This document shows, in pieces, positions 2,386 through 44,966 of a stretch of 54,354 bases of DNA. The position numbers were made by a program, and so were the translations under genes. Source of the stretch: a virus; the IMG/VR virus record IMGVR_UViG_3300045240_000043, positions 1 to 54,354 of that record. One strand, written 5' to 3'. The notes under the pieces were generated by a model, which made no database searches, was not told the origin of the DNA, and saw only the letters and a program-made list of their open reading frames with translations. Position 1 is the first letter of the stretch. Every line of letters starts with the position of its first letter.

Positions 2386-2922
2386 TCAAAGTGACCGCCG
2401 ACCTTGGCTAAGGCCAGTCGTCACGCTCCGTGCACGCCGCAGGAGTGACCCTGCGTAGTCAGCGACACGGCGTGACCAGCGCGGCGAGGACGCCAGCGGC
2501 AGCGGCACGTTCCGCAGCTTGTCATCCCACTGCTGCTTCGGCGTCCCCCAGATCAGGTTGCCCTCGCCGCGGTCGCAGGCGTCCTCGCCGCCAGGAGCCC
2601 ACCTGTTGTCGTCGCTGACGTCGTTCCAGTGCCGCACCTGCGTCCCCGGCGGCTGCGCGTTCTCCGGCTCGTACGCGGCCGTCAGCGCGGGCATCATCAG
2701 CCCGTGGACCTCCCTCGTCCGGGGCGTTCCCTCGTCGTCGACGAGGTTCGTCTGCGGATAGCCGCGAGTAGAGAACCGCAGGGCCAGATCCTTCCCCGGC
2801 TGCCGCCGCCCGTTCGCCAGCCTCCGGTCAACCGAGCGCACCCGGCCACGGCTCGACACCTCGTAAGAGCTGAAGCCGGGGATCCTGGCCCATAGCTCCG
2901 TCTGCACGTCACTGTCAGTCAT
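2386..2922 (-). CDS. NUMOD4/HNH-type endonuclease-like protein
   Basis: 178 residues; the start at 2922 was chosen because its ATG overlaps the stop of the translocase gene (ATGA) and follows AAGGTAAAGG. The N-terminal part (ELWARIPGFSSYEVSSRGRVRS) is a NUMOD4 DNA-binding motif. The centre has RHWNDVSDDNR and NLIWGT, matching the H..D..DN...NL.YGT core of NUMOD4-associated HNH nucleases, with about 15 extra residues between the DN and NL parts. The last 45 residues are basic and unassigned. It is a likely homing endonuclease that has become translationally coupled to the translocase. Confidence 0.7.
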   Translation of the reverse strand: MTDSDVQTELWARIPGFSSYEVSSRGRVRSVDRRLANGRRQPGKDLALRFSTRGYPQTNLVDDEGTPRTREVHGLMMPALTAAYEPENAQPPGTQVRHWNDVSDDNRWAPGGEDACDRGEGNLIWGTPKQQWDDKLRNVPLPLASSPRWSRRVADYAGSLLRRARSVTTGLSQGRRSL

Positions 2923-4685
2923 CGCAGTACCTTTACCTTCCCGTCTTGCCATGCCTTCAGCTCCAGCGCGTCGAACAGCCGCGCCGGGCCATCCCATCCG
3001 ACATGCTCAGGGAACCCGGCCCGCTGGCTCGCCTTGTTCGCCGCCGCCTTGCTCAGCCTGATGATGTCCAGCTCCCTGGCCTTGGCCAGCGTGACCGCCG
3101 TGGGCGGCAACTCAGGCGTCCCTGGGACAACCGGCTGCTCAGGGCCACCCTGGCCGATCTGCGGGCGCACCGGGACACCTGGGACAGCGACAGCGCCCGG
3201 CATCCCCGCCGGGCACGCCGTGAACGTGCCGTTCACCGCGAACTCACGCGCCCACGCCGCCGCCACGGCAGCCACGGCCTCGTCCTTGTCGTCCAGGTGC
3301 AGGTACGGCACCTGCGTCTCACGAGTCCCCGACGCCGTCACAACCTGTATGCGCCCAGGGACCGTCGGGACCGGCGGCATCGGCACGGACGTCATCTTGC
3401 TCCACGACGACGGCGTGTACCGGGCCATGCACGAGATCCCGATATTGCCGCGCACTGAGCTGTCGTTCGCGCCCGTCGCCGCCGCCGTGATCATCTGCCC
3501 GATGAAGAAGATATGCATCAGCACCTGCCGGCCAGCGAACGCGACGTCACCGATGGCGTCCAGCGCCGGGGACCGCTTCGGCAGCGTCTTGTCGATGGCC
3601 CGCATGTCCGCCCAGTAGCGTTTCAGCTGCGGGATCACGAAGTTCAGTTCCTCCGCGAACAGGATCATCCGTGGTCCGACGTCAGCGCGGATCGCGCCCG
3701 AGGGCTGCAGCCCGGCGAGCGCCACGCTGTTGCGGCGCTTCAGCTCAGTCCCGAACCACACCAGCAGGTCATGAACCTCCGGGATCATCCCCGCGTACGC
3801 CACGTTCGGCAGGCCCCGCAGGCACGGGTAGGAGATCAGCTTCGCGTCGATGACGCCCACCACGTCGCCACGGTGCAGGAACTGCAGCGCGCAGAACGAG
3901 CCCAGGTTCGTCTTGCCGCCGCCCGAGCCCATGTTGAACGCGACGTGGGGGCTGTCCGCGGCCAGCGATGCCTTCACCGGGACGCGTCCCTTCCCGAGCC
4001 CGAACACGACCTCATCGGGATCGGCATCGTCAACGATCCGGGCGACGTCATCCCAGACGGCGCCGCCAGGCGGCGGCTTGCTCTTCGTGTACGTGACCTG
4101 CGGCTTTGCGCCCTTGTCATGGTCCAGTGACCATTCCGCATCGGGTGCCTCGATCGCCAGCTTCGCCGTGACCGCCTGCGTGACCGACTGCCGGGCGCCC
4201 GGACTGCCGGTGAACTCGACGGGCAGGCCGACGATGACCTTGCTGCGGTCGGGCGCGATCACGAGCCGGGCGGGCGGGATGCCCATCTCGTAGGTGAGCG
4301 CCCGGTGCAGCGGCCGCACCCAGGTGCGGTGGTGCCGCCAGTCCCGGCCGCGGGCAATTGCCGCGGGCACGTGCAGCGCCGCGAACGCGAGCGTCCCGAC
4401 AGCGAGGACCGCGATGGTCTCCGTCCTGGCCACCAGCAGCCCTAGCGCCGTCAGCGCCACGCCGAGCGTGGCAACGGTGCGGAGCGCGGCCAGGTCCCGC
4501 TGCCGCCAGTGATGCCACCACAGCGCATACCCCGTCGGGTGCAGCACCTTCGTGGCCTTCCGGTTCCACGTCGCGTTCGTGCGGTACTTGCCATCAAGCG
4601 GCCGGCCACCGAACCAGCGGCGCAGCCGTGGCTGGCTGGCGATCACCAGCAGCACGGCGGCGGCGAGCAGGAACCGGAAGGTCAT
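2919..4685 (-). CDS. FtsK/TraB-like DNA translocase
   Basis: 588 residues. Residues 3-18 and two segments near 66-110 are hydrophobic and predict a membrane anchor. The soluble part has a Walker A variant GSGGGKTN (253-260) and a Walker B-like strand ILFAEE (about 341-346), where Ala replaces the usual Asp. The C-terminal tail includes a Pro-rich linker and a final small helical domain. Architecture and length match actinomycete FtsK-type transfer proteins (TraB/TraSA), which move double-stranded plasmid or ICE DNA between hyphae as a hexameric pump. Neighbours (DUF2637 protein, zinc ribbon, GntR regulator) are also typical of AICEs. Transfer function here is inference; a role in DNA segregation is possible. 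Confidence 0.78.
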   Translation of the reverse strand: MTFRFLLAAAVLLVIASQPRLRRWFGGRPLDGKYRTNATWNRKATKVLHPTGYALWWHHWRQRDLAALRTVATLGVALTALGLLVARTETIAVLAVGTLAFAALHVPAAIARGRDWRHHRTWVRPLHRALTYEMGIPPARLVIAPDRSKVIVGLPVEFTGSPGARQSVTQAVTAKLAIEAPDAEWSLDHDKGAKPQVTYTKSKPPPGGAVWDDVARIVDDADPDEVVFGLGKGRVPVKASLAADSPHVAFNMGSGGGKTNLGSFCALQFLHRGDVVGVIDAKLISYPCLRGLPNVAYAGMIPEVHDLLVWFGTELKRRNSVALAGLQPSGAIRADVGPRMILFAEELNFVIPQLKRYWADMRAIDKTLPKRSPALDAIGDVAFAGRQVLMHIFFIGQMITAAATGANDSSVRGNIGISCMARYTPSSWSKMTSVPMPPVPTVPGRIQVVTASGTRETQVPYLHLDDKDEAVAAVAAAWAREFAVNGTFTACPAGMPGAVAVPGVPVRPQIGQGGPEQPVVPGTPELPPTAVTLAKARELDIIRLSKAAANKASQRAGFPEHVGWDGPARLFDALELKAWQDGKVKVLR

Positions 4686-4695
4686 CGACGTCCTC

Positions 4696-4788
4696 TCACT
4701 TCTTCTTCCTTGATAGCTGGCAGTTGCTGTTGGTGCAGATGCCGTATCGCACCGCTGAGCCGCAGTGACTGCAAGTGGTTGTCGCCAT
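4696..4788 (-). CDS. Thirty-residue zinc-ribbon peptide
   Basis: 30 residues encoded between the DUF2637 gene and the translocase gene. GGAGGTGACC lies just before the ATG at 4788. The peptide has C-S-H-C near the N-terminus and C-x4-C later, ending in RKKK, so it is a minimal zinc ribbon with a basic tail. Similar tiny Cys proteins occur next to transfer genes in actinomycete mobile elements. It may be an accessory protein of the translocase; no direct evidence. Confidence 0.55.
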   Translation of the reverse strand: MATTTCSHCGSAVRYGICTNSNCQLSRKKK

Positions 4789-4793
4789 GATGG

Positions 4794-5393
4794 TCACCTC
4801 CCTCCGCTTCCGTTGAGACTGGTCACCCTGGCGACCCGCTTGGCCACCGTGGTCTTCGACACGCCGTACACGGCCGCGATCTCACGCTGAGACAGGTGCC
4901 CGGGCACCCGGCCGGCCGCGTCGGTGACCGCCTCGTCCAGGGTGGCCGGGAAGGTGACCGCGCCGCTGTCAGCCGGGGAGGGAAAGCTAGCGGCGCGGTC
5001 ACGTCTCAGGATGCCCATCAGGATCTCCAGGGCAACCCACATGGTCACCGGGGCCAGCGCGTTGACCAGCGCGGACCCCCGGTGGTCAGGCCACCCCGCC
5101 GCGACGTTCATCACCAGCGTGATCAGGCAGCCCAGCATGAGACCAGCCACCGCCCACCGGGGTCGCGGCACCTTCGCGGTAGCCGCTTCATACAGCGCGA
5201 GCGCGGACAGGTAGATGAGGCCGTCGGGCAGCAGCGGGGGCAGGTACGCCCACCCGCCGCCCGTGCCGGACGCGCGGACCACCTGCAGCGCGTGCCGGTA
5301 GGACATGATCGCGGCGGCGATGCCGATGGCGGCGGTGACGGTGACCGCCCTGCGCCGCACCCGGTCACCCCGGTCCCTGCTGGTCCTCTTCAC
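4794..5393 (-). CDS. DUF2637 membrane protein with C-terminal HTH
   Basis: 199 residues from a GTG at 5393. Four hydrophobic helices fill residues 10-130, with the WAYLPPLLPDGLIYLSALALYEA and LVMNVAAGWPD signatures of the DUF2637 family found in actinomycete plasmids and AICEs. The last 50 residues contain a helix-turn-helix (LSQREIAAVYGVSKTTVAKRVARV) that could bind DNA. It heads the leftward operon DUF2637, zinc ribbon, translocase, HNH. It resembles spread (Spd) proteins in position and topology. No Shine-Dalgarno is visible; a -10-like TATTCT lies just upstream, so the mRNA may be leaderless. Confidence 0.7.
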   Translation of the reverse strand: MKRTSRDRGDRVRRRAVTVTAAIGIAAAIMSYRHALQVVRASGTGGGWAYLPPLLPDGLIYLSALALYEAATAKVPRPRWAVAGLMLGCLITLVMNVAAGWPDHRGSALVNALAPVTMWVALEILMGILRRDRAASFPSPADSGAVTFPATLDEAVTDAAGRVPGHLSQREIAAVYGVSKTTVAKRVARVTSLNGSGGR

Positions 5394-5463
5394 GCCAACA
5401 GAATATGTGGCTTGGCGTGGCGTGGCTAGCACTTGACTATGGTGAGTCGTTACGGTAAGCCCC
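5394..5463. promoter_or_regulatory. Divergent promoter region between DUF2637 and GntR genes
   Basis: A 70-base region separates divergent genes that both start with GTG and lack clear ribosome-binding sites. It holds a TTGGCGTGGCGTGGC direct-repeat tract, a leftward -10-like TATTCT and a rightward TTGACT. The GntR-type product probably binds here, as Kor-type regulators do in actinomycete transfer modules. Exact sites are uncertain. Confidence 0.45.
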
Positions 5464-5694
5464 GTGCCCATCGACCCATCCTCGCCCGAGTGGCCGCGCG
5501 TCCAGGTGGCCAACCGGATCCGCCAGCAGATCCAGGCCGGGCAGCTCGGGCCGAAGCTGCCGTCGCACATGGAGCTGGCGCAGCAGATGGGCGTCGCGCC
5601 GATGACGGTCCAGAAGGCGCTGGCGATCCTGCGCGAAGAGGGACTGGTCTACTCGGTGGCGGGTCGCGGGACTTTCGTCACGCCCGCTGGCTAG
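5464..5694 (+). CDS. Short GntR-family winged-helix regulator
   Basis: 76 residues, GTG start. The whole protein is one GntR-type winged helix: VANRIRQQIQAGQLGPKLPSH, the recognition helix region MGVAPMTVQKALAILREEGLV and the wing SVAGRGTFV. It has no C-terminal effector domain, so it is far shorter than standard GntR repressors. It is divergent from the transfer-like operon and is its best candidate repressor, analogous to KorSA-type control. Confidence 0.85.
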   Translation: MPIDPSSPEWPRVQVANRIRQQIQAGQLGPKLPSHMELAQQMGVAPMTVQKALAILREEGLVYSVAGRGTFVTPAG

Positions 5695-5848: not shown

Positions 5849-5974
5849 TCACCACTCGACGTGCCAGTGCCGGAACTTCCCCCGCCGCGTTTTCCAGTAC
5901 CAGCAGAGCTTGTGCTGGTGATACCACCAGGTGCCAGTCGCAGGGTTGCGCCCTTGCAGCCGGATCACTGGCAT
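5849..5974 (-). CDS. 41-residue Trp/His/Arg-rich protein coupled to integrase
   Basis: A short gene whose ATG overlaps the integrase stop (TGATG) and is preceded by GGAGGGG. The product is strongly basic and aromatic (motifs TWWYHQHKLCWYW, RHWHVEW), rich in Trp, His, Lys and Arg. It may be a nucleic-acid-binding or excisionase-like partner of the recombinase; this is a position-based guess. An overlapping longer ORF in another frame has no start signal and was set aside. Confidence 0.5.
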   Translation of the reverse strand: MPVIRLQGRNPATGTWWYHQHKLCWYWKTRRGKFRHWHVEW

Positions 5975-6597
5975 CACAGCCCCTCCGGGTGCTGGTCGCC
6001 GTCGTCGCGTCCCCATTTGCTGGCCAGCATCGCGTCGATCGCCGACCGCGGGTTCAGGTGCTGGATGTAACGGTCGGTCGTTCCCACGTTCGAGTGGCCC
6101 AGGAACACGGAGATCATGTGCGTCGGCACACCCTCGTTCGCCGCCTCGTACGCCCGGCTATGGCGGAGGCCGTGGCAGTGGACGCGTTTCTCCAGCTTCG
6201 CCTTGGCGCCGAGGTCGGTCATCATCCACCGCACGTACCGCGACGACAGCGGGCGCCCGGCGAGGGTGCAGAACAGCGGCGCCGACCGGGGCAGCCCCTT
6301 CGCCTCCCGGGCCGCCAGCCACACCTCCAGCACCGCCCACGCGCGGGGCTCGATCCCGACGGTGCGGGCCTTGCGGCCCTTGCCGAACATGACGCGCACG
6401 GACCCGTCGGCGCGGTCCAGGTCGTGGATCCTGAGGTGGAGGGCTTCCTCGCAGCGCAGCGCCCCGCGCCACAGGACGACGATGAGCGCCCGGTTGCGTT
6501 TCCCGGTGGGGGACGTGGGGGAGCAGGCCGCCATCAGCGCCTCGACCTCGCCGGTGGTGAGCGCCTGCGGGTGGAACTTGAGCCCGGCGTTACTCAC
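5974..6597 (-). CDS. Tyrosine recombinase, catalytic-domain only
   Basis: 207 residues using the GTG at 6597, which overlaps the stop of the upstream gene (GTGA); an ATG at 6693 would add 32 residues inside that gene. Catalytic residues are all visible: R48 (GALRCEEAL), K in GKGRKART, H142-x-x-R145 (HGLRHS), H168 (LGHSNVGTT) and Y177 (DRYIQH). The N-terminal core-binding domain of phage integrases is almost missing, leaving a compact catalytic domain. It may act as an accessory recombinase, resolvase or remnant of the mobile-element module. The genome has a second, full-length integrase at 10483. Confidence 0.85.
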   Translation of the reverse strand: MSNAGLKFHPQALTTGEVEALMAACSPTSPTGKRNRALIVVLWRGALRCEEALHLRIHDLDRADGSVRVMFGKGRKARTVGIEPRAWAVLEVWLAAREAKGLPRSAPLFCTLAGRPLSSRYVRWMMTDLGAKAKLEKRVHCHGLRHSRAYEAANEGVPTHMISVFLGHSNVGTTDRYIQHLNPRSAIDAMLASKWGRDDGDQHPEGL

Positions 6598-6947
6598 AGC
6601 AGCGTTCCCTGCGCGGCGGGAACGCGCGGCCCGCGACGCATACCGGCGTCGCTGCGCTTGGTCCGCGGTTCGTAGGTGAGGCACACTGGCCACGGGTTGC
6701 CGTCGCTGAACTCCTCTGCGCAGTGCGGCGGGTAGGGCGAAGCGTCAGGTGACCATTCGGGCATGTCGGCGTTGTACGGGTCGCAGATGGCGCGGGAGAC
6801 CAGCTCGCAGCCGTACCCGCCGCCGTTGCCCTCGCGGCGCTCGCGGGCGCTCTCGTGCCTGCATCCGGCGCACATGGCGTCCAGCCACTCAGACAGGTGC
6901 ACGCCGCCGTCGCTGTTGCCGCCGAACAGGTCCGTAGCGGTGGCCAT
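6594..6947 (-). CDS. Cys-rich small protein, probable zinc binding
   Basis: 117 residues from the ATG at 6947. It contains C-x2-C-x-H (CAGCRH), further cysteines at CEL and ICDPYNADMPEW, and HCAEEFSDGNPWPVC near the C-terminus, suggesting one or two bound metals. It sits between two other Cys-containing small proteins in the leftward early operon. Function unknown. Confidence 0.6.
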   Translation of the reverse strand: MATATDLFGGNSDGGVHLSEWLDAMCAGCRHESARERREGNGGGYGCELVSRAICDPYNADMPEWSPDASPYPPHCAEEFSDGNPWPVCLTYEPRTKRSDAGMRRGPRVPAAQGTLL

Positions 6948-6950
6948 CAC

Positions 6951-7244
6951 TCAGTCCTGCCGCTTCTCACAGTTAGCGGTACTCATAGCGGAAATCTCCC
7001 GTTCCCAGCGCTCATATTCAGCCGGGATCAGGTACTGGTCGGGCTGGGGCGGCAGGTGACAGCCCTCCCCGTCAAAGCCGTGGCAGCGCCACCAGCCATC
7101 TTTACCCAGGCGCATATCACCGTGCTGGATGCAGCCGGGATGGCAACCATGCCCGATGAGCGGATGCCCGGTGATCCCGCAGGGCGGGGGCGCCCCAGGG
7201 CCGTCCCAGTAGGTGACAGTCACGCGCCCGGTGCCTGACCTCAT
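6951..7244 (-). CDS. Small Cys/His protein ending in the repeat-encoded KRQD tail
   Basis: 97 residues, ATG at 7244. The middle has HGCHPGCIQHGD and WWRCHGFDGEGCH, a Cys/His pattern likely to bind zinc. The last 11 codons (MSTANCEKRQD) are encoded by copy 1 of the dispersed junction repeat. Function unknown; early-operon accessory gene. Confidence 0.6.
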   Translation of the reverse strand: MRSGTGRVTVTYWDGPGAPPPCGITGHPLIGHGCHPGCIQHGDMRLGKDGWWRCHGFDGEGCHLPPQPDQYLIPAEYERWEREISAMSTANCEKRQD

Positions 7245-7278
7245 GGCGTCTCCTGCCGCTTCGCAAGGGTAGCGGTAC

Positions 7279-8508: not shown

Positions 8509-8784
8509 TCAGTCCTTCCGCTTCGGCAGGGTAGCGGTATTGCGCAGGCGGTCCAGTGCGGCCTCTATGTCCGGGGGCGACTCGTGATTGTGCGCCGCGT
8601 CCAGGCACCACAGCGGCGGCCCGCCAGCGTCACCTGCCAGACGCTCGGCCAGAAACCTGTCAATCTGCAGGTCGCCCTCATGCGGGCAGCCCGGGTGATG
8701 CAGGTACGGCGCCCGGCCATCGGCGCGGTAGCTGCCGCAGCCGGGGCAGGCGTTCACCCGGTGCGGATTCGGGGACTGTGCCAT
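8509..8784 (-). CDS. Small zinc-ribbon-like early protein
   Basis: 91 residues, ATG at 8784 overlapping the stop of the upstream gene (ATGA). Motifs: ACPGCGSYRADG, HPGCPHEGDLQ and CLDAAHNHE, a probable zinc-ribbon layout. C-terminus NTATLPKRKD is encoded by repeat copy 5. Function unknown. Confidence 0.65.
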   Translation of the reverse strand: MAQSPNPHRVNACPGCGSYRADGRAPYLHHPGCPHEGDLQIDRFLAERLAGDAGGPPLWCLDAAHNHESPPDIEAALDRLRNTATLPKRKD

Positions 8785-8963
8785 CAGTCCTTCCCCTGCC
8801 GCTTAGAAAGCGTAGCGGTACTCTCCAGCGACAGCAGGGCACCTTCTACCGCCTCGTCGGTGATGCCGTCCAGCGCCCGGTAGATGTCCTCTAGCGGGAT
8901 GCCAGATTCCATCGCTGGCCAGTCCCGGCCGGCCACGTAGTAGCCGGTACGCCGATCGGGCAT
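8784..8963 (-). CDS. 59-residue early protein with repeat-encoded tail
   Basis: 59 residues, ATG at 8963. Acidic helical body (IPLEDIYRALDGITDEAVEGALLSLE) followed by STATLSKRQGKD from repeat copy 6. It is tightly packed between genes with an ATGA overlap at its stop, which supports it as real. Function unknown. Confidence 0.6.
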   Translation of the reverse strand: MPDRRTGYYVAGRDWPAMESGIPLEDIYRALDGITDEAVEGALLSLESTATLSKRQGKD

Positions 8964-8966
8964 CGG

Positions 8967-9149
8967 TCAGTCCTTCCGCTTAGTTGCGGTAGCGGTATCG
9001 ATTGGGCGCCGGGCGGCCTCGGTCATCGCCCCGAAGGCGCGCCGGTACTTCTCGGCCCAGGCAGCGAGCGGCTCATTCATGGCCTTCATCGCTTCCGCGA
9101 ACTGCACCACCGCCGACAGCTCCGCCTTGTCACTGATGTTGTCGATCAC
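8967..9149 (-). CDS. 60-residue helical early protein
   Basis: 60 residues from a GTG at 9149 that overlaps the stop of the upstream gene (GTGA). Almost wholly helical (ELSAVVQFAEAMKAMNEPLAAWAEKYRRAFGAM is spread over residues 10-45), with the repeat-encoded tail DTATATKRKD. Function unknown. Confidence 0.6.
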   Translation of the reverse strand: MIDNISDKAELSAVVQFAEAMKAMNEPLAAWAEKYRRAFGAMTEAARRPIDTATATKRKD

Positions 9150-9427: not shown

Positions 9428-9526
9428 CGTTCCTCCTTCTGCCGCTCTTGAACCTAAGCGGTACATACAGGCCACTCTACAGGGGTTCGGAAGGCGTGTC
9501 ACGCAAGAGCGGTACATACAGCGGCT

Positions 9527-10282: not shown

Positions 10283-10483
10283 TCACCGCCTGCTGAGCGC
10301 TTCGCGCACTGTGGCGTACATCGCCGGGTGCAGGCGCTTGCGCCGGCTGCGGCCTTCCGCCAGCGCCTTGTTCATGTCCCGCACCGACTGAGCGTAACCG
10401 GGGCTGTTGTGGCTGCGGTAGCCGCCGATACCGTGCTTGCGGCTGCTCAGGTTCCCGCGGCCGGACTGGCTGCTCATGAACAT
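10283..10483 (-). CDS. Small basic protein coupled to integrase
   Basis: 66 residues; its ATG overlaps the integrase stop (TGATG). Strongly basic, with a probable helix SVRDMNKALAEGRSRRKRLHPAMYATVREALSRR split over residues 32-66. Position directly after the integrase suggests a recombination directionality factor or DNA-bending partner; this is not supported by a recognised motif. Confidence 0.5.
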   Translation of the reverse strand: MFMSSQSGRGNLSSRKHGIGGYRSHNSPGYAQSVRDMNKALAEGRSRRKRLHPAMYATVREALSRR

Positions 10484-11403
10484 CAGCCTGCCACGATCCG
10501 CAACCGCTCGGGCACCGGCAGCGCGGCCACCGCGGCGTGCGCCGACGGCCGGTCATACGCCGCGTACCCGGCCGTCACCACCGGCGAGGAGTGCCCGAGC
10601 AGATCCTGCGTCAGCCTAAGATCCCTAGTTCCCCGGTAGATTTGCGTGCCATATCTATGACGCAGGGAATGGAGCGTGGCCTGCACTCCGCATTCGTGCA
10701 AGTGGATATTCGCGTAATGGGATATAAGTCCCGGCGTGCACGGCCCAGGCTGGCCGTCCATGCGACGGAACACGTAGCCGCTAGGCGGCAGTCCAGCGCG
10801 TTGGAGTTCCGCGATTACGAATCCGTTAAGCGGCACGGCTCTCTCCCGCGCATGCCCCTTAGTGGCACCGGCGGCGACGATGAGCACCGGCGGGGACGCG
10901 GTTTCGAGTACGGATTCGCGGCGTAGCAGCGCTATCTCCTTGGCGCGCAGCCCGCACCAGGCAGCAAGGATGAGCCAAGGCCGGATACGTGGCGTGGCGA
11001 GCGCGAGCGCTCGCATGAGATCCGGCTCACCGACGGGCCTGGGGAGTCTCCTGGCGGTGCGCGGCACCGGGATGCCTGCGGCCGGGTTAGCGCTGATCAG
11101 GCCGCTGGCCACGCAGGACTCGTAGAACGCGCGGGCGTGGCCGACGTAGTGGACGATCACCTCGTCGCTGACGGTCAGGGAGGCCCGCCACGCGCCCAGC
11201 GTCGCGGCGTCAGCGTCGAGAAGGGGGACGGGGAGAGCGCGGCCGAGCTGCCGCAGGAACGTTAGGCGACCGTAGATGGTCGCGGCCGAATGCCCGAGCA
11301 GGCGCAAATGCTCTAAATGGTCCTCGATCGCTTCCATGAGGATGCCGGATTCTGTGCGTGCTGCGGGGCACAGTGACGGATCGTAACGCAACGGTATTCG
11401 CAT
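10483..11403 (-). CDS. int: Phage integrase, tyrosine recombinase
   Basis: 306 residues from the ATG at 11403; a GTG at 11448 would overlap the upstream repressor gene by 19 bases. Residues about 25-115 form a SAM-like core-binding domain (AATIYGRLTFLRQLGRALP, VIVHYVGHARAFYESCV). The catalytic domain has R153 (WCGLRAKE), K182 (TKGHARER), H245-x-x-R248 (HSLRH), H271 (LLGHSSPV) and Y280 (TAGYAAY). It would recombine attP with a host attB. It is linked to a repressor gene upstream, forming a standard lysogeny module. Confidence 0.92.
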   Translation of the reverse strand: MRIPLRYDPSLCPAARTESGILMEAIEDHLEHLRLLGHSAATIYGRLTFLRQLGRALPVPLLDADAATLGAWRASLTVSDEVIVHYVGHARAFYESCVASGLISANPAAGIPVPRTARRLPRPVGEPDLMRALALATPRIRPWLILAAWCGLRAKEIALLRRESVLETASPPVLIVAAGATKGHARERAVPLNGFVIAELQRAGLPPSGYVFRRMDGQPGPCTPGLISHYANIHLHECGVQATLHSLRHRYGTQIYRGTRDLRLTQDLLGHSSPVVTAGYAAYDRPSAHAAVAALPVPERLRIVAG

Positions 11404-11429
11404 GGCAAGGGCCTTGCATAAACCGCTGG

Positions 11430-11747
11430 TTACGCGGCTAGAATGCACAGCGAACGACGCTGCGGCAGGGTCTGAATAAGCGCGGACCTGGACTTCACAT
11501 CAGGCAGATTCGGCACGAGAACCGGGCCGTCGAAAAAAACAGTGATCGGCACGTCCAGCAACTCGGCTAGCTTCGCCAGGTCGGACACGTCGAACGGGAC
11601 GCCCCCGGTGAGGCGCCGCGACAGGTAGGGCTCGGTCCAGCCGAGTTCGAGGGCTGCGGATCGCCCGGATCTCTGCCGCCGTGCGAGCCAGGCCCTGACT
11701 TCGCCTGCGACAATCCGTTGCATCATCTCCGCGTGCGGGGTATCCAT
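11430..11747 (-). CDS. XRE-type HTH repressor (leftward)
   Basis: 105 residues from the ATG at 11747. The region EVRAWLARRQ...ALELGWTEPYLSRRLTGGVPFDVSDLAKLAELLDVPI is an XRE-type helix-turn-helix. The last 30 residues are a different, possibly oligomerising tail. It closely resembles the divergent protein at 11827, so the two are paralogues. As the gene cotranscribed with integrase, it is the likelier lysogeny repressor. No Shine-Dalgarno is visible. Confidence 0.8.
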   Translation of the reverse strand: MDTPHAEMMQRIVAGEVRAWLARRQRSGRSAALELGWTEPYLSRRLTGGVPFDVSDLAKLAELLDVPITVFFDGPVLVPNLPDVKSRSALIQTLPQRRSLCILAA

Positions 11748-11826
11748 GCGGTCAGCGTAAGGTTCCGATACCGGACATTGCAAGTATGACTTGCGCGAAA
11801 TTTCGCTCAGCGGTAACCTGCCACGC
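11748..11826. promoter_or_regulatory. Genetic-switch region with two adjacent palindromes
   Basis: The 79-base gap between the divergent HTH genes contains GCAAGT-ATG-ACTTGC (11780-11794), a 15-base inverted repeat, directly abutting GCGAAATTTCGC (11795-11806), a perfect 12-base palindrome. Two distinct adjacent operators between two paralogous regulators fit a bistable immunity switch. Which protein binds which site cannot be told from sequence. Confidence 0.65.
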
Positions 11827-12036
11827 ATGGCCAGAGAAACTATCGCAGGCGAGGTCCGGGCAGAGCTCGGTCGCCAGAACCTCTCGCAGACCTACGTATG
11901 CGCCCGGCTGAAATGGACCCAGCCCTACCTGTCCCGGCGCCTCACCGGCCAGGTCGCGTTCTCCACCGATGACCTGGAGAAGATCGCGGAGTTCCTCGAC
12001 GTGCCCGTCATCCGGTTCCTGGAGCCGGCGGCATGA
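11827..12036 (+). CDS. XRE-type HTH regulator (rightward, Cro-like position)
   Basis: 69 residues from the ATG at 11827; a TTG at 11791 would extend it across the palindromes and was rejected. It is almost entirely an XRE-type HTH domain (EVRAELGRQNLSQTYVCARL, WTQPYLSRRLTGQVAFSTDDLEKIAEFLDVPVIRF). It shares the YLSRRLTG core with the divergent repressor. First gene of the rightward early region, so a Cro-like role is likely. Confidence 0.82.
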   Translation: MARETIAGEVRAELGRQNLSQTYVCARLKWTQPYLSRRLTGQVAFSTDDLEKIAEFLDVPVIRFLEPAA

Positions 12037-14680: not shown

Positions 14681-14832
14681 CCTGCGCCCGCTGCGGAGCC
14701 GACTACGACGACGCCGACCAGGACGTGACCTGGAGCCACACCTACAACGAATGGACCTGCACATACGTCACCGACTGCGACGATCGCCTGTTCGAGCAGC
14801 GCCAGGGAGAAGGACACCCTGATGGGTTCTGA
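14674..14832 (+). CDS. 52-residue zinc-ribbon-like protein
   Basis: The ATG at 14674 overlaps the preceding gene, and the stop overlaps the start of the ERF gene. The product opens with VTCARCGADYDDADQD and has WTCTYVTDCDDR, giving two Cys pairs typical of a small zinc ribbon. Function unknown. Confidence 0.5.
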   Translation: MVTCARCGADYDDADQDVTWSHTYNEWTCTYVTDCDDRLFEQRQGEGHPDGF

Positions 14833-15730
14833 GTCGCTCGCCACCGCGCTCGCCGCGTTCCAGGCCGACCTGCCAACCGTGGAAAAGAACCGCACAGGCG
14901 AGGTCAGCGGCACCAGCAAGCAAGGCAAGCCGTACAGCTACACGTACAAGTACGCCGACCTAGCCGACGTGAGCAGCGTCGTTCTCAAGGCCATAGGCAA
15001 GCACGGACTCTCGTTCACGTCCAGGCCGACGACGGTCGACGGGAAGTTCGGGCTGGCGTACTCGCTGCTGCACGTCTCCGGGGACCGCGAGGACGGGTTC
15101 TTCGAACTGCGCGACGACCCTGATATTCAGCGGGTGGGTGGCCGTATCACCTACGCGCGCCGCTACTGCCTGTGCGCCGTGACCGGCGTGGCAGCCGAAG
15201 AGGACACAGACGCGCGGCACGACGCGCAGCAGGCCCCCAAGCCGCGCGCTAGCCGCCGCAAGCCCGAGATGCCTGAGGTGGACAAGCATGGTGCAGCCAC
15301 GCTGGCTGAGCAGACGCGCATGGTGCACGGCGCCGTAGACGGCGTGGAACGGCTCGCCACGACGCCACCAGACGACCCATGGCTGTCCGTGGACGAGAAC
15401 GGCGAACGTCGGGCCGCCGGCCAGTTGCCGCGTCCCATCGGTGACCAGCCACCCAAGCCCGGCCACATGCAGGAACGGCTGCCGCACCTGAACGCCATCT
15501 TCGGTCACTTCAACCGGCTCGGCGTTCAGGACAAGGCATACCGGCTATTCGTCACCGCGCTCCTGGCCGGCCTTGAACCGGGCGGCCTCAAGACCAGTAC
15601 TGATCTCACCGAGGAGCAGGCCAAACGGGTGCTTGAGGAGCTATCGCACCTGAAGGACGGCCCGGCGCTGGCCGCGCGCAAGAAGGCCATCGAGGCCGAG
15701 CTGGAATTGGCGGCAGCCGATGCCGTATGA
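14822..15730 (+). CDS. erf: ERF-family single-strand annealing protein
   Basis: 302 residues. Residues 1-130 match the ERF superfamily: SLATALAAFQADLPTVEKN, YKYADLADVSSVVLKAIGKHGLSF, and the IQRVGGRITYARRYCLCAVTGVAAEEDTD core ending. The linker (about 135-215) is charged and the C-terminal 80 residues form a helical domain. ERF proteins anneal homologous single strands in phage recombination and replication restart. Its neighbour at 15849 is a CoiA-like nuclease-fold protein that could supply processing. Confidence 0.9.
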   Translation: MGSESLATALAAFQADLPTVEKNRTGEVSGTSKQGKPYSYTYKYADLADVSSVVLKAIGKHGLSFTSRPTTVDGKFGLAYSLLHVSGDREDGFFELRDDPDIQRVGGRITYARRYCLCAVTGVAAEEDTDARHDAQQAPKPRASRRKPEMPEVDKHGAATLAEQTRMVHGAVDGVERLATTPPDDPWLSVDENGERRAAGQLPRPIGDQPPKPGHMQERLPHLNAIFGHFNRLGVQDKAYRLFVTALLAGLEPGGLKTSTDLTEEQAKRVLEELSHLKDGPALAARKKAIEAELELAAADAV

Positions 15731-15848: not shown

Positions 15849-16931
15849 GTGAGAGATCTTGTGCTCCATGTTCCTACCGGGATCAGGCTTGACCTGAGTG
15901 ATCCCGGATACGGGCATGAATACGGCCAGCGGATCATCGCCGAAGCACACAGGCATTGCCCGCGAGGCGTCCTGGTGTGCGACAAGCACCAAAGTCCCTT
16001 GTACCTTCAAAACAGGTCTGGGCGGTTCACCGGAACGAGACTGTTCGGCATCCACTTCGAGGGCGGCTTCGCGCATCATGAAGTCGCCCGGATGAGTGAT
16101 GAGCACAAACGGCAGACCGAGTACCTGATACGCGGTGCCACCGATGCTGGCTTTCCCGCTAAGGCCGAGGTCACGCTTCCCAGCGGAACACGGCCCGACG
16201 CAGTAATATACGGTCGCCATACAGTTGCGATCGAAGTCCAGCGCTCACCGCTGACCGCGCAATCGGCCGTGACTCGCGTCAAGAAAGCTATGGCCGGCGG
16301 AATGGCCACATCCGTCTGGTTCAGCGACTGGCAGCACCGCAAGCCTAAGTGGCAATTCCGCGTGCCCTCAATCGGCATGAACTCTCCAACCTGGGACGAC
16401 CTCCCTCCACGTCGCTCGGCCACTGTCACCACCGGGTTGCGCCTCATCACTGCCGTCAAGTGCATCCCAGCCAACCTGCAACGATGCCCGCGCGGCAAGC
16501 GCCACTGCGGCAATTTCCATGAGAAGCACGAGCCGTGGATGGGCATGACCGTCGACGACGTGGCCTCGATGGTTCCTGCAGGCGAGATAGTCCCGATGCG
16601 GTTTCGCGGCCGGGACGTACTGCTCGTGTCACCCGAAAGTTTGCGGCTGTACGAAGAACTGGCAGGGCATCCGGCTGAGCTTGTGTTCATTCCGGCGGCG
16701 GAAAACGGCACCCCGCGCGCTGATCGGGTCGCTGACCGCATCGAATGCTCAGCACCGTTCCCTGTCCTGCGCGGGTCACAGCTTGAACTGATCTTCCCAG
16801 GGATCGCCCTGTGCTCCTACTGCCGGACGCAGCCAGCAGGGCCGGGAGGAATCCTGTGCGCTGCTGATAAGGCGCTGCTAACTAACAGGACGCGGCCAGA
16901 CCTATCCGCCTACTCGGGACGGGAAGCATGA
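15849..16931 (+). CDS. CoiA-like PD-(D/E)XK nuclease-fold protein
   Basis: 360 residues from a GTG. RPDAVIYGRHTVAIEVQRSPL gives D117 and E129-x-Q131, the catalytic signature of CoiA-type PD-(D/E)XK nucleases; the region just before it (DEHKRQTEYLIRGATDAGFPAKAEVTL) also fits. A Cys pair (CSYCRTQPAGPGGILC) near the C-terminus may bind zinc. CoiA-like proteins act on DNA during recombination. Next to ERF, a recombination role is plausible; substrate unknown. Confidence 0.6.
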   Translation: MRDLVLHVPTGIRLDLSDPGYGHEYGQRIIAEAHRHCPRGVLVCDKHQSPLYLQNRSGRFTGTRLFGIHFEGGFAHHEVARMSDEHKRQTEYLIRGATDAGFPAKAEVTLPSGTRPDAVIYGRHTVAIEVQRSPLTAQSAVTRVKKAMAGGMATSVWFSDWQHRKPKWQFRVPSIGMNSPTWDDLPPRRSATVTTGLRLITAVKCIPANLQRCPRGKRHCGNFHEKHEPWMGMTVDDVASMVPAGEIVPMRFRGRDVLLVSPESLRLYEELAGHPAELVFIPAAENGTPRADRVADRIECSAPFPVLRGSQLELIFPGIALCSYCRTQPAGPGGILCAADKALLTNRTRPDLSAYSGREA

Positions 16932-17548
16932 GCGTGGGATTCAAGCTCTACCGCGAGGTCCGCGACTTCGCGCCCGGCGACCTCACCTCTGGTGAGCTTG
17001 TCGTGGCCCTCACCATCGCCGACGACGCCCGCGACGAGACGCGACGGTCGTGGATCAGCCTGCCGCTGCTGTGCGCCCGTACGCGCCTCAAGCCGTCCGG
17101 CGTCCGCTCGGCGCTCGGGAAGCTGGCCGCGCGAGGGCTTGAGTTCCGTGTCGCTCACGGCTACGGCGGCGACGGCCGGCCCATGTTCGCGCTCAAGGGG
17201 CACGCCGTCGATTACGTCGTCCCGGACATGCTCAAAGGTGCTGCCACAGCCCCGCCTAAGGCAGCGCCTAAGCCTGTGGATAACTCAGCCAAAGGTGACA
17301 CCACAGCCGCACCTTTGAACGGTTCCGGGCGACTCAAAGGCGCCACTGTGGCACACAAAGGCGACACCACAGCCGCACCTATAGGCGCTCAAAGGTGGGG
17401 CCACAGTGTCACCCCTCCCCTCAAAGAACCTAAACCCTCAAAACAGATCCCCTCAACTGAAGAAGCGTCTGTAGTCACGGCCCCAGGTGGAAACGGGCGC
17501 CCAACGTCAGATCAAAAGCTGTGGATAACTTCCGGAGGCAAGCCATGA
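16928..17548 (+). CDS. Replication initiation protein containing the origin repeats
   Basis: 206 residues, ATG in an ATGA overlap. Residues 1-100 form a winged-helix DNA-binding domain of the phage replication-initiator type (SGELVVALTIADDARD, SWISLPLLCARTRLKPSGVRSALGKLAARGL). Residues 100-165 are low complexity and repeat KGDTTAAP; that repetition is a by-product of iterons in the DNA. This O-protein-like arrangement, with origin inside the gene, suggests it binds the iterons and loads host replication proteins. Confidence 0.75.
   Translation: MSVGFKLYREVRDFAPGDLTSGELVVALTIADDARDETRRSWISLPLLCARTRLKPSGVRSALGKLAARGLEFRVAHGYGGDGRPMFALKGHAVDYVVPDMLKGAATAPPKAAPKPVDNSAKGDTTAAPLNGSGRLKGATVAHKGDTTAAPIGAQRWGHSVTPPLKEPKPSKQIPSTEEASVVTAPGGNGRPTSDQKLWITSGGKP
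17231..17528 (+). other. Probable replication origin: iterons and DnaA boxes
   Basis: Five copies of a motif CAAAGG(T/C)G-n3-CCACAG(C/T) lie at 17231-17251, 17288-17307, 17333-17352 (divergent), 17354-17374 and 17389-17409. Two copies of TGTGGATAA, the exact complement of the DnaA box TTATCCACA, lie at 17275-17283 and 17520-17528. An A-rich tract follows the last iteron (17419-17465). All of this is inside the initiator gene, as in lambda O. The combination strongly suggests a DnaA-assisted theta origin. Confidence 0.75.
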
Positions 17549-17754
17549 CCCGCGTCCTGCAGCCATGCGGCACCCAGGCCGCCTACCAGCGCCACGTCCG
17601 CCACGGCGAACCCGCCGACGAAGCATGCCTCGCCGCCGAACGCCGCCGCGTCCGCCTCGCCCGCATGCACGCCGCCGACCGCACCAGCGTGCTGTTCCGT
17701 GAGCTGATCGGCCTCCTGGCCGCTGCGTGCCGCGACGCCGGGATGCTGCCATGA
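17545..17754 (+). CDS. Small protein with CGTxAAYxRHxRxGEP motif
   Basis: 69 residues, ATG at 17545 behind GGAGG. CGTQAAYQRHVRHGEPADEACLAAERRR is the same motif as in the protein at 13930, followed by a hydrophobic helix (FRELIGLLAAACRDAGML). A small, possibly zinc-binding actinophage family. Function unknown. Confidence 0.6.
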   Translation: MTRVLQPCGTQAAYQRHVRHGEPADEACLAAERRRVRLARMHAADRTSVLFRELIGLLAAACRDAGMLP

Positions 17755-18103: not shown

Positions 18104-18583
18104 ATGCCTGATGCTACCCATGAGACCTGGAAGCCAGTCGTCGGCTACGAGGGCCTCTATGAAGTCAGCGACCGTGGACGGGTCCGCACCGTGCCGCGCA
18201 TACTCAAGCCCGGCACCCTCAACCATGGCCATCTGCACGTAAACCTGTGGATCAACCGCAAGGGAAAAACGCGAACCGTCCACCGCCTTGTCGCCGCCGC
18301 GTTCATTGGCCCTTGCCCTGACGGGCAAGAGGTACGGCACCTGGACGGCAATCCCACAAACAACGCCGTCGAGAACCTGAAGTACGGCACGCGCAGCGAG
18401 AATCTGCTTGATCGAGTCCGGCATGGCACCCACAACAACGCCAGCAAGACGCACTGCAAGAACGGTCACGAGTTCACGCCTGAGAACACCATCGACAACC
18501 ACGGCAACCGTGGCTGCCGGGAATGCCACCGTGTCGCTTCCCTGGCCTGGTGGGACCGCCAAAGGAGCAAGGAGATCAAATGA
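18104..18583 (+). CDS. NUMOD4-HNH homing endonuclease
   Basis: 159 residues; the ATG at 18104 follows GAGGTG, and the longer upstream frame is the leader. WKPVVGYEGLYEVSDRGRVRTV is NUMOD4. The HNH core reads RTVHRLVAAAFIGPCPDGQEVRHLDGNPTNNAVENLKYGTRSENLLDRVRHGT over residues 65-110, with the H-x-D...NN...NL pattern. A C-terminal zinc-like motif follows (HCKNGHEFTPENT, CRECHR). It sits just upstream of the endolysin gene, its stop overlapping that gene's start (ATGA). A mobile intergenic insertion. Confidence 0.9.
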   Translation: MPDATHETWKPVVGYEGLYEVSDRGRVRTVPRILKPGTLNHGHLHVNLWINRKGKTRTVHRLVAAAFIGPCPDGQEVRHLDGNPTNNAVENLKYGTRSENLLDRVRHGTHNNASKTHCKNGHEFTPENTIDNHGNRGCRECHRVASLAWWDRQRSKEIK

Positions 18584-22908: not shown

Positions 22909-23060
22909 TCGTCTCTTTTGCGGCCTGCTGAAATACAGGAAAAAGGCCGGGGGCGGGGGCTGTCACGTTCAGTTACCATCCTACGACTCCGCAGTCATCT
23001 GGTTTGTGTGTCCGAATCACATCTAGGCCCTGACCTGCGCAAACACGCGAGGTGTTGATC
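22909..23060. promoter_or_regulatory. Intergenic region ahead of terminase genes
   Basis: 152 bases with no gene. A G-rich tract (GGCCGGGGGCGGGGGC) lies at about 22946-22961, and GAGGTGTTGATC precedes the small terminase start. This is the likely location of a late promoter and possibly the packaging (cos/pac) site; neither is identifiable from sequence alone. Confidence 0.35.
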
Positions 23061-34442: not shown

Positions 34443-36494
34443 GTGACCTACCAGTCGGTCTGCCTGGCTGACAGCCCGGCGCTGTTCTGGGCGCTGAACG
34501 AGACGTCCGGGACGACGGCGGTCGACGCTTCCGGCAGCGGTCACGCGGGCACGTACAACGGCGCGTTCACCCTCGGCGTGACGGGTCCGCCGGGCGCGGG
34601 CATGGGCGGCTCCCTCGCGGTCAGCCTCACCGGCAACACCGTGTCGGCGACCGGCGGCCATGTCACGTCCGGGGCGCTCACCAACTTCCAGAACGTCTCC
34701 GCGGAGATCTGGTTCAACTCGTCCACGGCGGCGGGCGGCGCGATCGTCCAGGCGCAGGACGTCAACTTCATCGTCTACCTGGCGAACAACGGCACGATCA
34801 CGTTCGGCGTGTTCGACGGCGCGGTGAACTCATGCACGACCGCCGGGGCGTGGAACGACGGCAACTGGCATTACCTGGTCGCCACGTACAACGCCACGAC
34901 CCACGCGCAGATCCTGTACATCGACGCGACGTCGGTGGCGACGGCGTCGACGGCGACGAGCATCGCGGGCGGCAGCGGCCTGTGGTATGCGGGCTTCGGC
35001 GGGAACTTCGTCGGGAACTGGCCGGGGACGGTCACCAACAATGACCCGACGGCGACGGTCGCGGATCTCGCGGTTTACCCGGCGGTCCTGACCCCGACGC
35101 AGATCAGTACCCATTACGCCGCCGCGACGGCCGCCGCCGCGGTCCCGGTTCCGGTGCCGCAGGCGCGGCCGGGCAGGACGTGGCGGCGCCGGTTCCGTCA
35201 CCGGCAGCAGCCACAGGGCGCCGCGGGCGCGGTCACTATCATCGCCACGGCGAACCTCGCCGCCGCCGGTGCCGTCTCCGCGCTCGCCACGCAGGACGCG
35301 GGCACCACCACCACCCTGGCTGCCGCAGGCAGCGTCACCGCGGCTGTCACCGAAATCGCGCCGGCAACAGCAGCCGGCGCCGCCGCGATCACTGCGAAAA
35401 CCACCCAGCCGGGTGCCGCTGCCCTCGCTGGCGCTGGCGCGGTCACCGACGTAGTCACGCAGGCCGTTATCGCAGCCCCGGCTGGCGCGGGCTCCATCAC
35501 CACGGTGGCAACTGAGGCTGTCACGGCCGCACCCGCTGGCGGTGGTGCGGTTGCCACGGTGGTCACGGAGATCGCCGGGGTCACGGTCGCCGGTGCCGGT
35601 GCCGTCACCGGCGTAGTCACGCAGGCGTGCACGGCGACCCTCGCAGGCGCGGGCAGTGTCACGGCGAATGCCAGTGTCATCGCCGCGGGGAACACCGCGA
35701 ACCTCGCCGCCGCCGGTGCCGTCTCCGCGCTCGCCACCGTCATCGTCCCGGCCACCGTGGCTGGCGCGGGCACCGTGGCCGCGGTGGTCACGCAGATTGC
35801 CCCGGCCACGGCGGCGGGTGCGGGCAGCGTCACCGCGGTCGTCACCGAGGCTGTCACGGGGGCGCCGGCCGGAGCCGGGGCACTCGGGCCGGTCCCGGTC
35901 ACCCAGGCCGCGACTGCGGCTCCGGCAGGCGCCGGCGCTGTCGCGGACGTAGTCACCCAGGCTGTCACCGCCAGCCTGGCAGGCGCCGGGGCGGTCACGG
36001 CGGTAGCCAGCTCGGGCGGCCCGAGTACCGCGAGCCTCGCCGGCGCGGGAACGGTCACGGCTAAGGCCACGGTCGCCGCCACGGCCATCGCAGCCGGTGC
36101 CGGGGCAGTGACGGCCACCGCCGCCCAGGCGGCCACGGCGGCGCTCTCAGGCGCGGGTGCCGTGTCCGCGAACGGCGCCATCACCGGCACCGCGAACCTT
36201 GCCGGAGCCGGGGCCGTAACGGCGAAAGCCGTCCAGACCGTCGCCGCGACGACGGCCGGAGCCGGGGCGCTGACCGCGCTCGCCGTCCAGCAGGCCACTG
36301 CGCAGCTCGCCGGCGCCGGTGCGGTCACCGCCACCGGGAGCATCCGGGTCGCGTTCACCATCGGCGCCCTGACAGCCACCAGCGCCGCGGGCAGCGTCCT
36401 TACCGCAGCCACCGCCGGGAACGCGCTCACGGCCAGCACCGCGCCGCGCAGCACCCTTACGGCGGCAACGACCAGGACGGGAGGGCCAGGTTAG
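34443..36494 (+). CDS. LamG-like domain plus 18-residue-repeat surface protein
   Basis: 683 residues, GTG start. Residues 1-225 form a concanavalin A/LamG-type domain (ALFWALNETSGTTAVDASGSGHAGTYNGAF, WNDGNWHYLVATYN). A short basic linker (RPGRTWRRRFRHRQQ) follows. From about residue 260 to 640 there are about 20 near-perfect 18-residue repeats with consensus AGAGAVTAVVTQAVTAAP. Such repeats suggest a long fibrous or solenoid element, for example a head or neck fibre that binds carbohydrate. The family is not recognised. Confidence 0.6.
   Translation: MTYQSVCLADSPALFWALNETSGTTAVDASGSGHAGTYNGAFTLGVTGPPGAGMGGSLAVSLTGNTVSATGGHVTSGALTNFQNVSAEIWFNSSTAAGGAIVQAQDVNFIVYLANNGTITFGVFDGAVNSCTTAGAWNDGNWHYLVATYNATTHAQILYIDATSVATASTATSIAGGSGLWYAGFGGNFVGNWPGTVTNNDPTATVADLAVYPAVLTPTQISTHYAAATAAAAVPVPVPQARPGRTWRRRFRHRQQPQGAAGAVTIIATANLAAAGAVSALATQDAGTTTTLAAAGSVTAAVTEIAPATAAGAAAITAKTTQPGAAALAGAGAVTDVVTQAVIAAPAGAGSITTVATEAVTAAPAGGGAVATVVTEIAGVTVAGAGAVTGVVTQACTATLAGAGSVTANASVIAAGNTANLAAAGAVSALATVIVPATVAGAGTVAAVVTQIAPATAAGAGSVTAVVTEAVTGAPAGAGALGPVPVTQAATAAPAGAGAVADVVTQAVTASLAGAGAVTAVASSGGPSTASLAGAGTVTAKATVAATAIAAGAGAVTATAAQAATAALSGAGAVSANGAITGTANLAGAGAVTAKAVQTVAATTAGAGALTALAVQQATAQLAGAGAVTATGSIRVAFTIGALTATSAAGSVLTAATAGNALTASTAPRSTLTAATTRTGGPG
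35226..36360 (+). repeat. Tandem 54-bp coding repeats
   Basis: About 20 imperfect tandem units of 54 bases encode the 18-residue repeat. Most are exactly 18 residues long; a few are 19-21. The units keep the same reading frame, so copy number can change by recombination or slippage without disrupting the gene. Confidence 0.75.
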
Positions 36495-44165: not shown

Positions 44166-44896
44166 TGGCGTCCGACAGCGGGAGGGTCGCGCCAGATCTC
44201 GCGTCGCACGATCTTCGATACGACTGGCTGACTGATGCCGAACTCACGCGCAAGCGGTCGCTGCTGTTCGCCAGCCGCCGCACGACGCCGGATCTCGCCG
44301 ACGTCTGCCCAGGTGACCTTCGCGGCCCAGTGCCGTTCACCGGCCACCCAGGTACGCGGGCGCACTTCCGTGCCATCTGCGAGATGAGCCCACTTCTTCC
44401 CGTTGACGGCTTCGCAGATCGCAGACTGCGTTACGCCGTATTCGCGTGCGAGCGCGGTCTGAGTCTCGCCATCTGCGTACCGCCGCTTGCAATCCGCGAC
44501 GATCTCGGCTGTCAGCTTCGCCGACCCGCATCGCTCACCACGAGGGGCAGTACCGTCCCGCACCATGTCGGCCATGTTCTGCAGCCGCGTGCCGTAACTC
44601 AGGTTGACGAGCCGGTTATCCATTGCCCGGCCAGGTCCGTGCAAAGACTCCATGCCCGGCGGACACGGACCAACGAAAGCCTCCAGCACGAGCTGATGCA
44701 CGAGACGGCTCTTGGCTTTCCGCTCCCGGTAAAGAGCAACGGTCAGGTGCCCGGCGCTCAGGCCAGGAGCCAGTACGCCGCCTCGTTTGCCGCTCCCGCG
44801 ACCAGCGTGGAAACTGCGCACGCGGCCGAGATCACTGACCTCGTACAAGCCTTCATAGCCCGCGATAGGAAGCCATCGCTCAGTAGGGTCATCCAT
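43862..44896 (-). CDS. NUMOD4-HNH endonuclease with antisense C-terminal extension
   Basis: 344 residues as an ORF, ATG at 44896. Residues 7-30 are NUMOD4 (RWLPIAGYEGLYEVSDLGRVRSF); HNH-like core at 60-100 (LVHQLVLEAFVGPCPPGMESLHGPGRAMDNRLVNLSYGT). Two HTH repeats follow (LTAEIVADCKRRYADGETQTALAREYGVTQSAICEAVNG and VTWADVGEIRRRAAAGEQQRPLAREFGISQPVVSKIVRREIW). The natural end should be near 44170, as in the HNH at 50309, but no stop occurs and the frame runs 300 bases antisense into the tape measure gene. Inserted directly after it. Confidence 0.75.
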   Translation of the reverse strand: MDDPTERWLPIAGYEGLYEVSDLGRVRSFHAGRGSGKRGGVLAPGLSAGHLTVALYRERKAKSRLVHQLVLEAFVGPCPPGMESLHGPGRAMDNRLVNLSYGTRLQNMADMVRDGTAPRGERCGSAKLTAEIVADCKRRYADGETQTALAREYGVTQSAICEAVNGKKWAHLADGTEVRPRTWVAGERHWAAKVTWADVGEIRRRAAAGEQQRPLAREFGISQPVVSKIVRREIWRDPPAVGRHQAHGPRAEYMPRAPARRAVPCSPRAIAVPVADGDCRRMSRMSRSSDTMAISCEPDSTRSGAPVLLMATDAPVGMKPPRSYQLNARSCAAACCGPPYLLRM

Positions 44897-44966
44897 AGCC
44901 ACACCTCCAATGTGGTCAGGCCCGGCTGTTGCGTTGACGCGCATAGCCGGGCCGCTTTCCATTTTA
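44897..44966 (-). promoter_or_regulatory. Structured leader of NUMOD4-HNH gene (copy B)
   Basis: Reading leftward: TAAAAT -10-like box (44966-44961); hairpin 1 GGCCCGGCT with AGCCGGGCC (44953-44945 with 44927-44919); hairpin 2 CCACA with TGTGG (44915-44911 with 44903-44899), with GGAGG in its loop; then ATG at 44896. The loop of hairpin 1 contains GCGTCAAC, shared with copy C. Confidence 0.6.

Follow-up and report, generated by a model that had tools for sequence, protein, structure and literature searches.

A candidate replication origin with iterons and two predicted DnaA boxes inside the putative initiator gene of a probable actinobacteriophage

Introduction

In bacteriophage lambda, the N-terminal DNA-binding domain of the O initiator is encoded upstream of the origin DNA; the iterons are four in number and regular, O also has a C-terminal domain, the loader gene P is adjacent, and ori is not known to contain DnaA boxes. 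Iterons, a low-GC tract and DnaA boxes make up the part list of the P1 oriR and F oriS origins. The iterons of lambda ori, recognised by O, are located inside gene O and are followed by the low-GC tract (PMC7466680). In the case of RK2, DnaA first localises DnaB at the DnaA boxes, after which the helicase is transferred to the unwinding element (PMC4980987). For the mycobacteriophage Miko, the authors suggested a lambda-like origin situated just upstream of or within repA (PMC7157519).

The locus presented here comes from a 54,354-base virus record of IMG/VR, analysed at its full length and referred to as the window. It resembles lambda ori and its lambdoid relatives in having predicted iterons for its own product within the initiator gene and a low-GC tract after them (PMC7466680), and from its sequence it appears to be a lambda-O-style intragenic origin, which is not rare as a kind. 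It differs from lambda in its irregular units, one inverted site, a protein that ends at the origin, the lack of a recognised loader and the presence of two DnaA boxes; of two further traits of the lambda-O type, a C-terminal initiator domain past the origin is missing and an adjacent loader gene was not recognised among the scanned proteins. The joint occurrence of iterons, an unwinding element and DnaA boxes is shared with P1 oriR, F oriS and RK2, but no plasmid Rep-family initiator or partition genes were recognised here, integrases are present and the origin is embedded in a gene that codes for an O-like phage protein. Miko and Alma, mycobacteriophages with extrachromosomal prophages, also provide actinophage replication loci, with RepA- or RNA-based origins; in these phages parABS replaces the integrase and no repeats were identified (PMC7157519), whereas integrases, iterons and DnaA boxes are found in the window.

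Genome context of the locus

The genes for terminase, portal, protease and tape-measure proteins identified the record as a tailed phage with a GC content of ~68%, the ends of which share a 127-bp direct overlap. Relatives of the terminase in the phage collection were mostly actinophages (best identity ~40%), which makes an actinobacterium the most likely host. The following genes are connected with lysogeny:

5974-6693, minus strand: tyrosine integrase
10483-11448, minus strand: second, different tyrosine integrase
11430-11828, minus strand: repressor
11827-12036: Cro-like gene, divergent from the repressor

Together, the two integrases, the repressor and the divergent Cro-like gene make up a lysogeny module. 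A 588-aa protein encoded at 2919-4685 (minus strand) contains the Walker A motif GSGGGKT and is TraB/FtsK-like by eye, with no Pfam, PHROG or PDB match. It is adjoined by a DUF2637 protein (both within 2919-5570, minus strand) beside an integrase gene, and the combination of translocase, DUF2637 protein and integrase is reminiscent of actinobacterial integrative conjugative elements, here within a phage genome.

Several other repeated sequences were noticed. The dyad TACCGCT-N10-AGCGG was observed at six places on the minus strand (6960-6981, 7256-7277, 8518-8539, 8799-8820, 8976-8997 and 9442-9463), with 0.37 matches expected. Each copy is located shortly before a minus-strand ATG and most are then followed by an AGGA-type ribosome-binding stretch. 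In Cluster K mycobacteriophages, similar elements are described as start-associated and extended start-associated sequences (PMC3203893); the sequence here differs, and the dyads may represent a shared operator or translation signal of the leftward genes. Diverged copies (~75-80% identical) of NUMOD4/HNH-endonuclease-type DNA were detected in three places (18121-18198, 50757-50834 and 44816-44900), one of them just downstream of the origin gene. In the structural region, many imperfect ~54 bp repeats were noticed at 34443-36494 within a gene whose product is repetitive and rich in alanine, threonine and valine.

The putative initiator gene and its neighborhood

The candidate origin is placed in an early gene block containing the following genes:

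14822..15730, plus strand: ERF-family ssDNA-annealing protein gene (PF04404, E=1.4e-15; PHROG Erf-like)
15849..16931, plus strand: CoiA-nuclease-like gene upstream of the initiator (PF06054, E=0.0064, below cut-off)
16928..17548, plus strand: initiator gene, 206 aa, with the N-terminal ~100 residues predicted to be winged-helix/HTH_36-like
17545..17754, plus strand: small gene overlapping the initiator stop codon (weak WhiB-like match, PHROG E=2.9e-05)

The end of the CoiA-like gene, homologues of which in L008 and L009 are 43-48% identical, overlaps the initiator start via ATGA, and the two genes are probably translationally coupled through this overlap. The small gene at 17545..17754 had no Pfam match and is not a recognised helicase loader.

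The N-terminus of the initiator matched PF13730 (HTH_36) with E=0.0059, below the curated cut-off, and the PHROG 'replication initiation O-like' family weakly and below threshold (E=0.037). A profile search of the PDB with an alignment of the winged-helix domain returned generic winged-helix regulators only, and the AlphaFold model obtained without an alignment was unusable (pLDDT 43). Residues 101-206 are of low complexity and are encoded by the origin DNA, with no C-terminal domain beyond them. No relatives of the initiator were found by tblastn among phages and plasmids or by pattern scans of IMG/VR and GTDB contigs; the single GTDB match to the initiator pattern (L003) was discarded as lying antisense to a Crp-like ORF. 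None of the relatives of the ERF, CoiA-like and terminase proteins was accompanied by the initiator in the records searched, and no close relative with this origin was found in the collections searched.

The two halves of the gene were characterized by different codon usage. Codon adaptation per 10 codons ranged over 0.41-0.92 in residues 1-100, as against 0.22-0.39 in residues 101-200, while GC3 fell from ~0.9 to 0.5 at residue 101, where the iteron array starts, and stayed low thereafter. An overlapping gene was rejected as the cause of this drop, no other frame being open across the region. The first half behaves like an ordinary gene; in the second, a constraint other than codon usage is at work. 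Because codon adaptation collapses exactly at the start of the array, DNA function seems to dominate the 3' half.

The iteron array

The sequence CAAAGG(T/C)G occurs five times in the forward orientation, with starts at 17233, 17290, 17335, 17356 and 17390, all inside ORF 16928-17548. The earlier note had reported five CAAAGG-type iterons and two perfect DnaA boxes within this one coding region. These counts were confirmed, and an inverted sixth CAAAGGYG, at 17310-17317, had been missed. The array consists of the following units:

17233..17260, plus strand: iteron unit 1, CAAAGGTG-N12-CGCCTAAG
17290..17317, plus strand: iteron unit 2, CAAAGGTG-N12-CACCTTTG, a perfect 8-bp dyad in which the inverted sixth iteron forms the right arm
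17335..17351, plus strand: iteron unit 3, CAAAGGCGCCACTGTGG
17356..17383, plus strand: iteron unit 4, CAAAGGCG-N12-CACCTATA
17390..17417, plus strand: iteron unit 5, CAAAGGTG-N12-CACCCCTC, in a reading phase different from that of units 1-4

The iteron pattern can be described as CAAAGGYG-N3-CCACAG with partial dyad symmetry. Units 1, 2, 4 and 5 were alignable over 25 bp (72-100%), and in four of the five units CACCTTTG, perfect or degraded, follows 12 bp past CAAAGGYG, forming a 28-bp partial dyad. The spacing is irregular (57, 45, 21 and 34 bp). Across the 54 kb window no CAAAGGYG was found outside 17233-17397, and the only two other CAAAGG sequences, at 245 and 18560, are both CAAAGGAG.

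An unbiased scan for repeated 8-mers of any sequence with one degenerate position, run over 1354 overlapping 200-bp windows, gave the iteron cluster a shared top score of 6, equalled solely by a stretch of CGG-rich, low-complexity sequence at 49.3 kb. An exact 8-mer present four times was reached in 4 of 300 synonymous or codon shuffles of the gene. The looser 17-mer clustering test was weaker, the observed value being attained in 15 of 150 synonymous shuffles and in 4 of 150 when codons were shuffled. On repetition alone, the array is significant without being overwhelming. A search of IMG/VR with the iteron sequence retrieved 86 stretches, among them no further origin-like cluster; the three iteron sites of L020, a contig of 46% GC, were rejected as belonging to a tandem repeat of 24 nt.

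The repeats could alternatively reflect a repeated protein motif (KGDTTAAP-like) or an autoregulatory operator array rather than an origin. Four of the six sites do share one phase, encoding a repeated KG(D/A)TTAAP-like peptide, and synonymous shuffles alone sometimes attained the looser repeat scores. Nevertheless, the CAAAGGYG sites occupy three reading phases, one forward and one inverted copy lying in phases other than the common one, and all iteron lysines are encoded by AAA, whereas the genes sampled use AAG for 88% of lysines. For operators, copies near other promoters might be expected and none were present. Such an explanation of the array was regarded as very improbable.

The DnaA boxes and the low-GC tract

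The window contains the sequence TGTGGATAA exactly twice, at 17275-17283 and at 17520-17528, and both copies fall within ORF 16928-17548. These predicted boxes and the neighboring tract are located as follows:

17275..17283, minus strand: DnaA box 1, TTATCCACA on the minus strand, within the 12-mer CTGTGGATAACT at 17274-17285
17416..17475, plus strand: tract rich in A and C with 47% GC against ~68% for the genome (A21 C20 G8 T11), a candidate DNA unwinding element
17520..17528, minus strand: DnaA box 2, TTATCCACA on the minus strand, within the 12-mer CTGTGGATAACT at 17519-17530, close to the gene's 3' end

From 5' to 3', the order is iteron 1, DnaA box 1, iterons 2-5, the low-GC tract, DnaA box 2 and the stop codon. 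Among the separate 60-bp GC minima of the window, the tract ranks fifth-lowest. The occurrence of these elements alongside the repeats also argues against a protein-repeat or operator function of the array.

The distribution of the predicted boxes is non-random, with two perfect TTATCCACA at the origin and none elsewhere in the window. The expected number of TGTGGATAA boxes was 0.02-0.05 for the whole window and the expectation for two in the initiator gene ~2e-8 to 2e-7. The 12-mer CTGTGGATAACT is read in two different frames, PVDN in one copy versus LWIT in the other, and the two boxes bracket iteron units 2-5 and the low-GC tract. An alternative explanation assumes an origin of lambda type with vestigial or regulatory boxes (DnaA acting, for example, as a transcription regulator) and with helicase loading by an unrecognised phage loader. 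It was assessed as unlikely, though of appreciable probability; identical 12-mers in different frames, bracketing the iterons and the tract, are hard to explain without selection.

TTATCCACA is the high-affinity DnaA sequence of E. coli and B. subtilis, whereas DnaA of M. tuberculosis and S. coelicolor prefers TTGTCCACA (PMC4285127), which is absent from the window. The boxes differ by one base from this actinobacterial optimum (PMC4285127) but are compatible with the degenerate Streptomyces oriC consensus (PMC3583192), so that an actinobacterial DnaA could plausibly, though not certainly, use them.

Comparison with other actinophages

A similar arrangement was found in the Margaery group, Edmundo and Tonitrus, in which an early winged-helix gene contains intragenic 22-24-bp units and an A/C-rich tract. 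This comparison supports the initiator assignment more strongly than do the weak family matches. The helix-turn-helix gene of Margaery (Microbacterium), which matched a PHROG replication initiation family with 5e-16, has three to four internal 22-bp units followed by GAACTAACTACAGAAGAACTAACCCC, and an ERF gene is located upstream, as in the window. In the relatives of Margaery a low-GC tract occupies the matching place, with repeats weaker or none. Edmundo (Arthrobacter) gp87 carries five 24-bp tandem units around GGGGTACCCC and then A/C-rich DNA (L107, 1772-1909); this gene, annotated only as hypothetical, very likely contains an intragenic replication origin. The winged-helix gene of Tonitrus (Rhodococcus) has four 22-24-bp units and then AACCAACCCTTTAACCAACC. 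The iteron sequence was different in each actinophage, as would be expected if each initiator had its own specificity. The recurrence of the layout with a 22-bp spacing, which is not a multiple of codons, also speaks against repeats selected at the protein level. The earlier note had considered such an origin signature rarely so clear in actinophages, which does not agree with the iterons and A/C-rich tracts of these phages, in places more regular than those described here.

The feature with no counterpart in the comparators examined is the DnaA boxes. No TTATNCACA or TTGTNCACA box was found within 400 bp of the nine comparator initiator genes, and an origin of this class accordingly needs no DnaA boxes, in line with a vestigial or regulatory role of those in the window. 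Most of the comparator genes showed a mid-gene dip in GC3, then a recovery and a C-terminal domain. Such a domain after the origin distinguishes the Margaery group and Edmundo, with Tonitrus perhaps excepted, from the initiator studied here. In DelaGarza, an annotated helicase loader is encoded directly downstream of the winged-helix gene, and Edmundo gp88, in the equivalent position, is similar by eye. These genes also fit the view that a phage protein loads the helicase, as do the many early genes of the window with no family match; on the other hand, no homologue of the comparators' loaders was found in the window.

Plasmid maintenance or lytic replication

The earlier note had taken circularity and a transfer module, together with the origin parts, as hints of extrachromosomal replication as a phage-plasmid. 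According to such an explanation, a plasmid-type iteron origin similar to those of P1, F or RK2 would maintain the prophage outside the chromosome. The iterons, low-GC tract and DnaA boxes do match the parts of P1 oriR and F oriS, the contig closes circularly, and the TraB/FtsK-like translocase with its Walker A motif and the DUF2637 protein are encoded at 2919-5570. The transfer module exists at least in part, but the translocase does not by itself indicate a plasmid. From any circular or concatemeric template an assembler would produce such a terminal overlap of 127 bp, a length apparently typical of assembler k-mers, and the circular closure does not point to a phage-plasmid.

Two integrases and a repressor argue against this mode of maintenance, and no family match to ParA, ParB or plasmid Rep (RepA-type) was found among the scanned proteins. 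The four related IMG/VR contigs L096, L097, L098 and L099 all start abruptly, at or close to the equivalent of base 22994 and ~290 bp ahead of the terminase gene; in L098 an insertion follows this point. This common start suggests a fixed end of packaged linear DNA at 22994. The cumulative GC-skew minimum was located at 22682, adjoining 22994, and an inflection at the origin, which the earlier note had proposed as a check, was not seen, as the skew makes no turn at 17.3 kb. Maintenance as a phage-plasmid was judged highly unlikely.

Discussion

The multi-frame DNA repeats, the DnaA boxes, the low-GC tract, the collapse of codon usage and the layout common to other actinophages support well the origin signature noticed earlier, and because of them the 3' half of ORF 16928-17548 is very probably a phage theta-type replication origin, nested in its own initiator gene. 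The locus is probably a real and functional origin of a known general kind, a variant by virtue of its DnaA component and short initiator.

In the proposed mechanism, the initiator would bind the predicted iterons, probably as dimers, wrap the DNA and open the A/C-rich tract at 17416-17475. Host DnaA at both boxes would aid the opening and recruit host DnaB, a step that would replace the C-terminal domain and the helicase loader seemingly missing from the phage. Precedent for DnaA-assisted delivery of DnaB is given by RK2 (PMC4980987). Such replication would serve lytic growth following induction of the integrated prophage, not plasmid maintenance. The joint reading, an origin with DnaA-assisted helicase loading, is somewhat favoured. 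Points against it are the sub-threshold family matches of the initiator, the irregular iteron spacing, the E. coli type of the boxes, the missing skew turn at the site and the failure to find a close relative with this origin in the collections searched.

In the scanned subset of the window's proteins, neither a helicase nor a helicase loader, a primase or an SSB was recognised, and a loader may be too diverged for recognition among the many unannotated early genes. A tentative further possibility is a minimal hybrid, in which a lambda-O-like initiator lacking the C-terminal domain and a phage loader has handed helicase loading to host DnaA via two boxes in its coding sequence. If true, the locus would stand between phage origins of the lambda type and plasmid origins that depend on DnaA, and lytic replication would be tied to host DnaA.

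Helicase loading by actinobacterial phages has been little studied and, to our knowledge, their hosts have no DnaC. A compact origin in which DnaA boxes accompany an O-like initiator, and for which no loader is recognisable, would allow a direct test of whether DnaA drives helicase loading in a phage, and the origin fragment might double as a small vector origin. The comparison also suggests that many actinophage genes annotated only as 'helix-turn-helix' or 'hypothetical' are origin-bearing genes of replication initiators and open to re-annotation.
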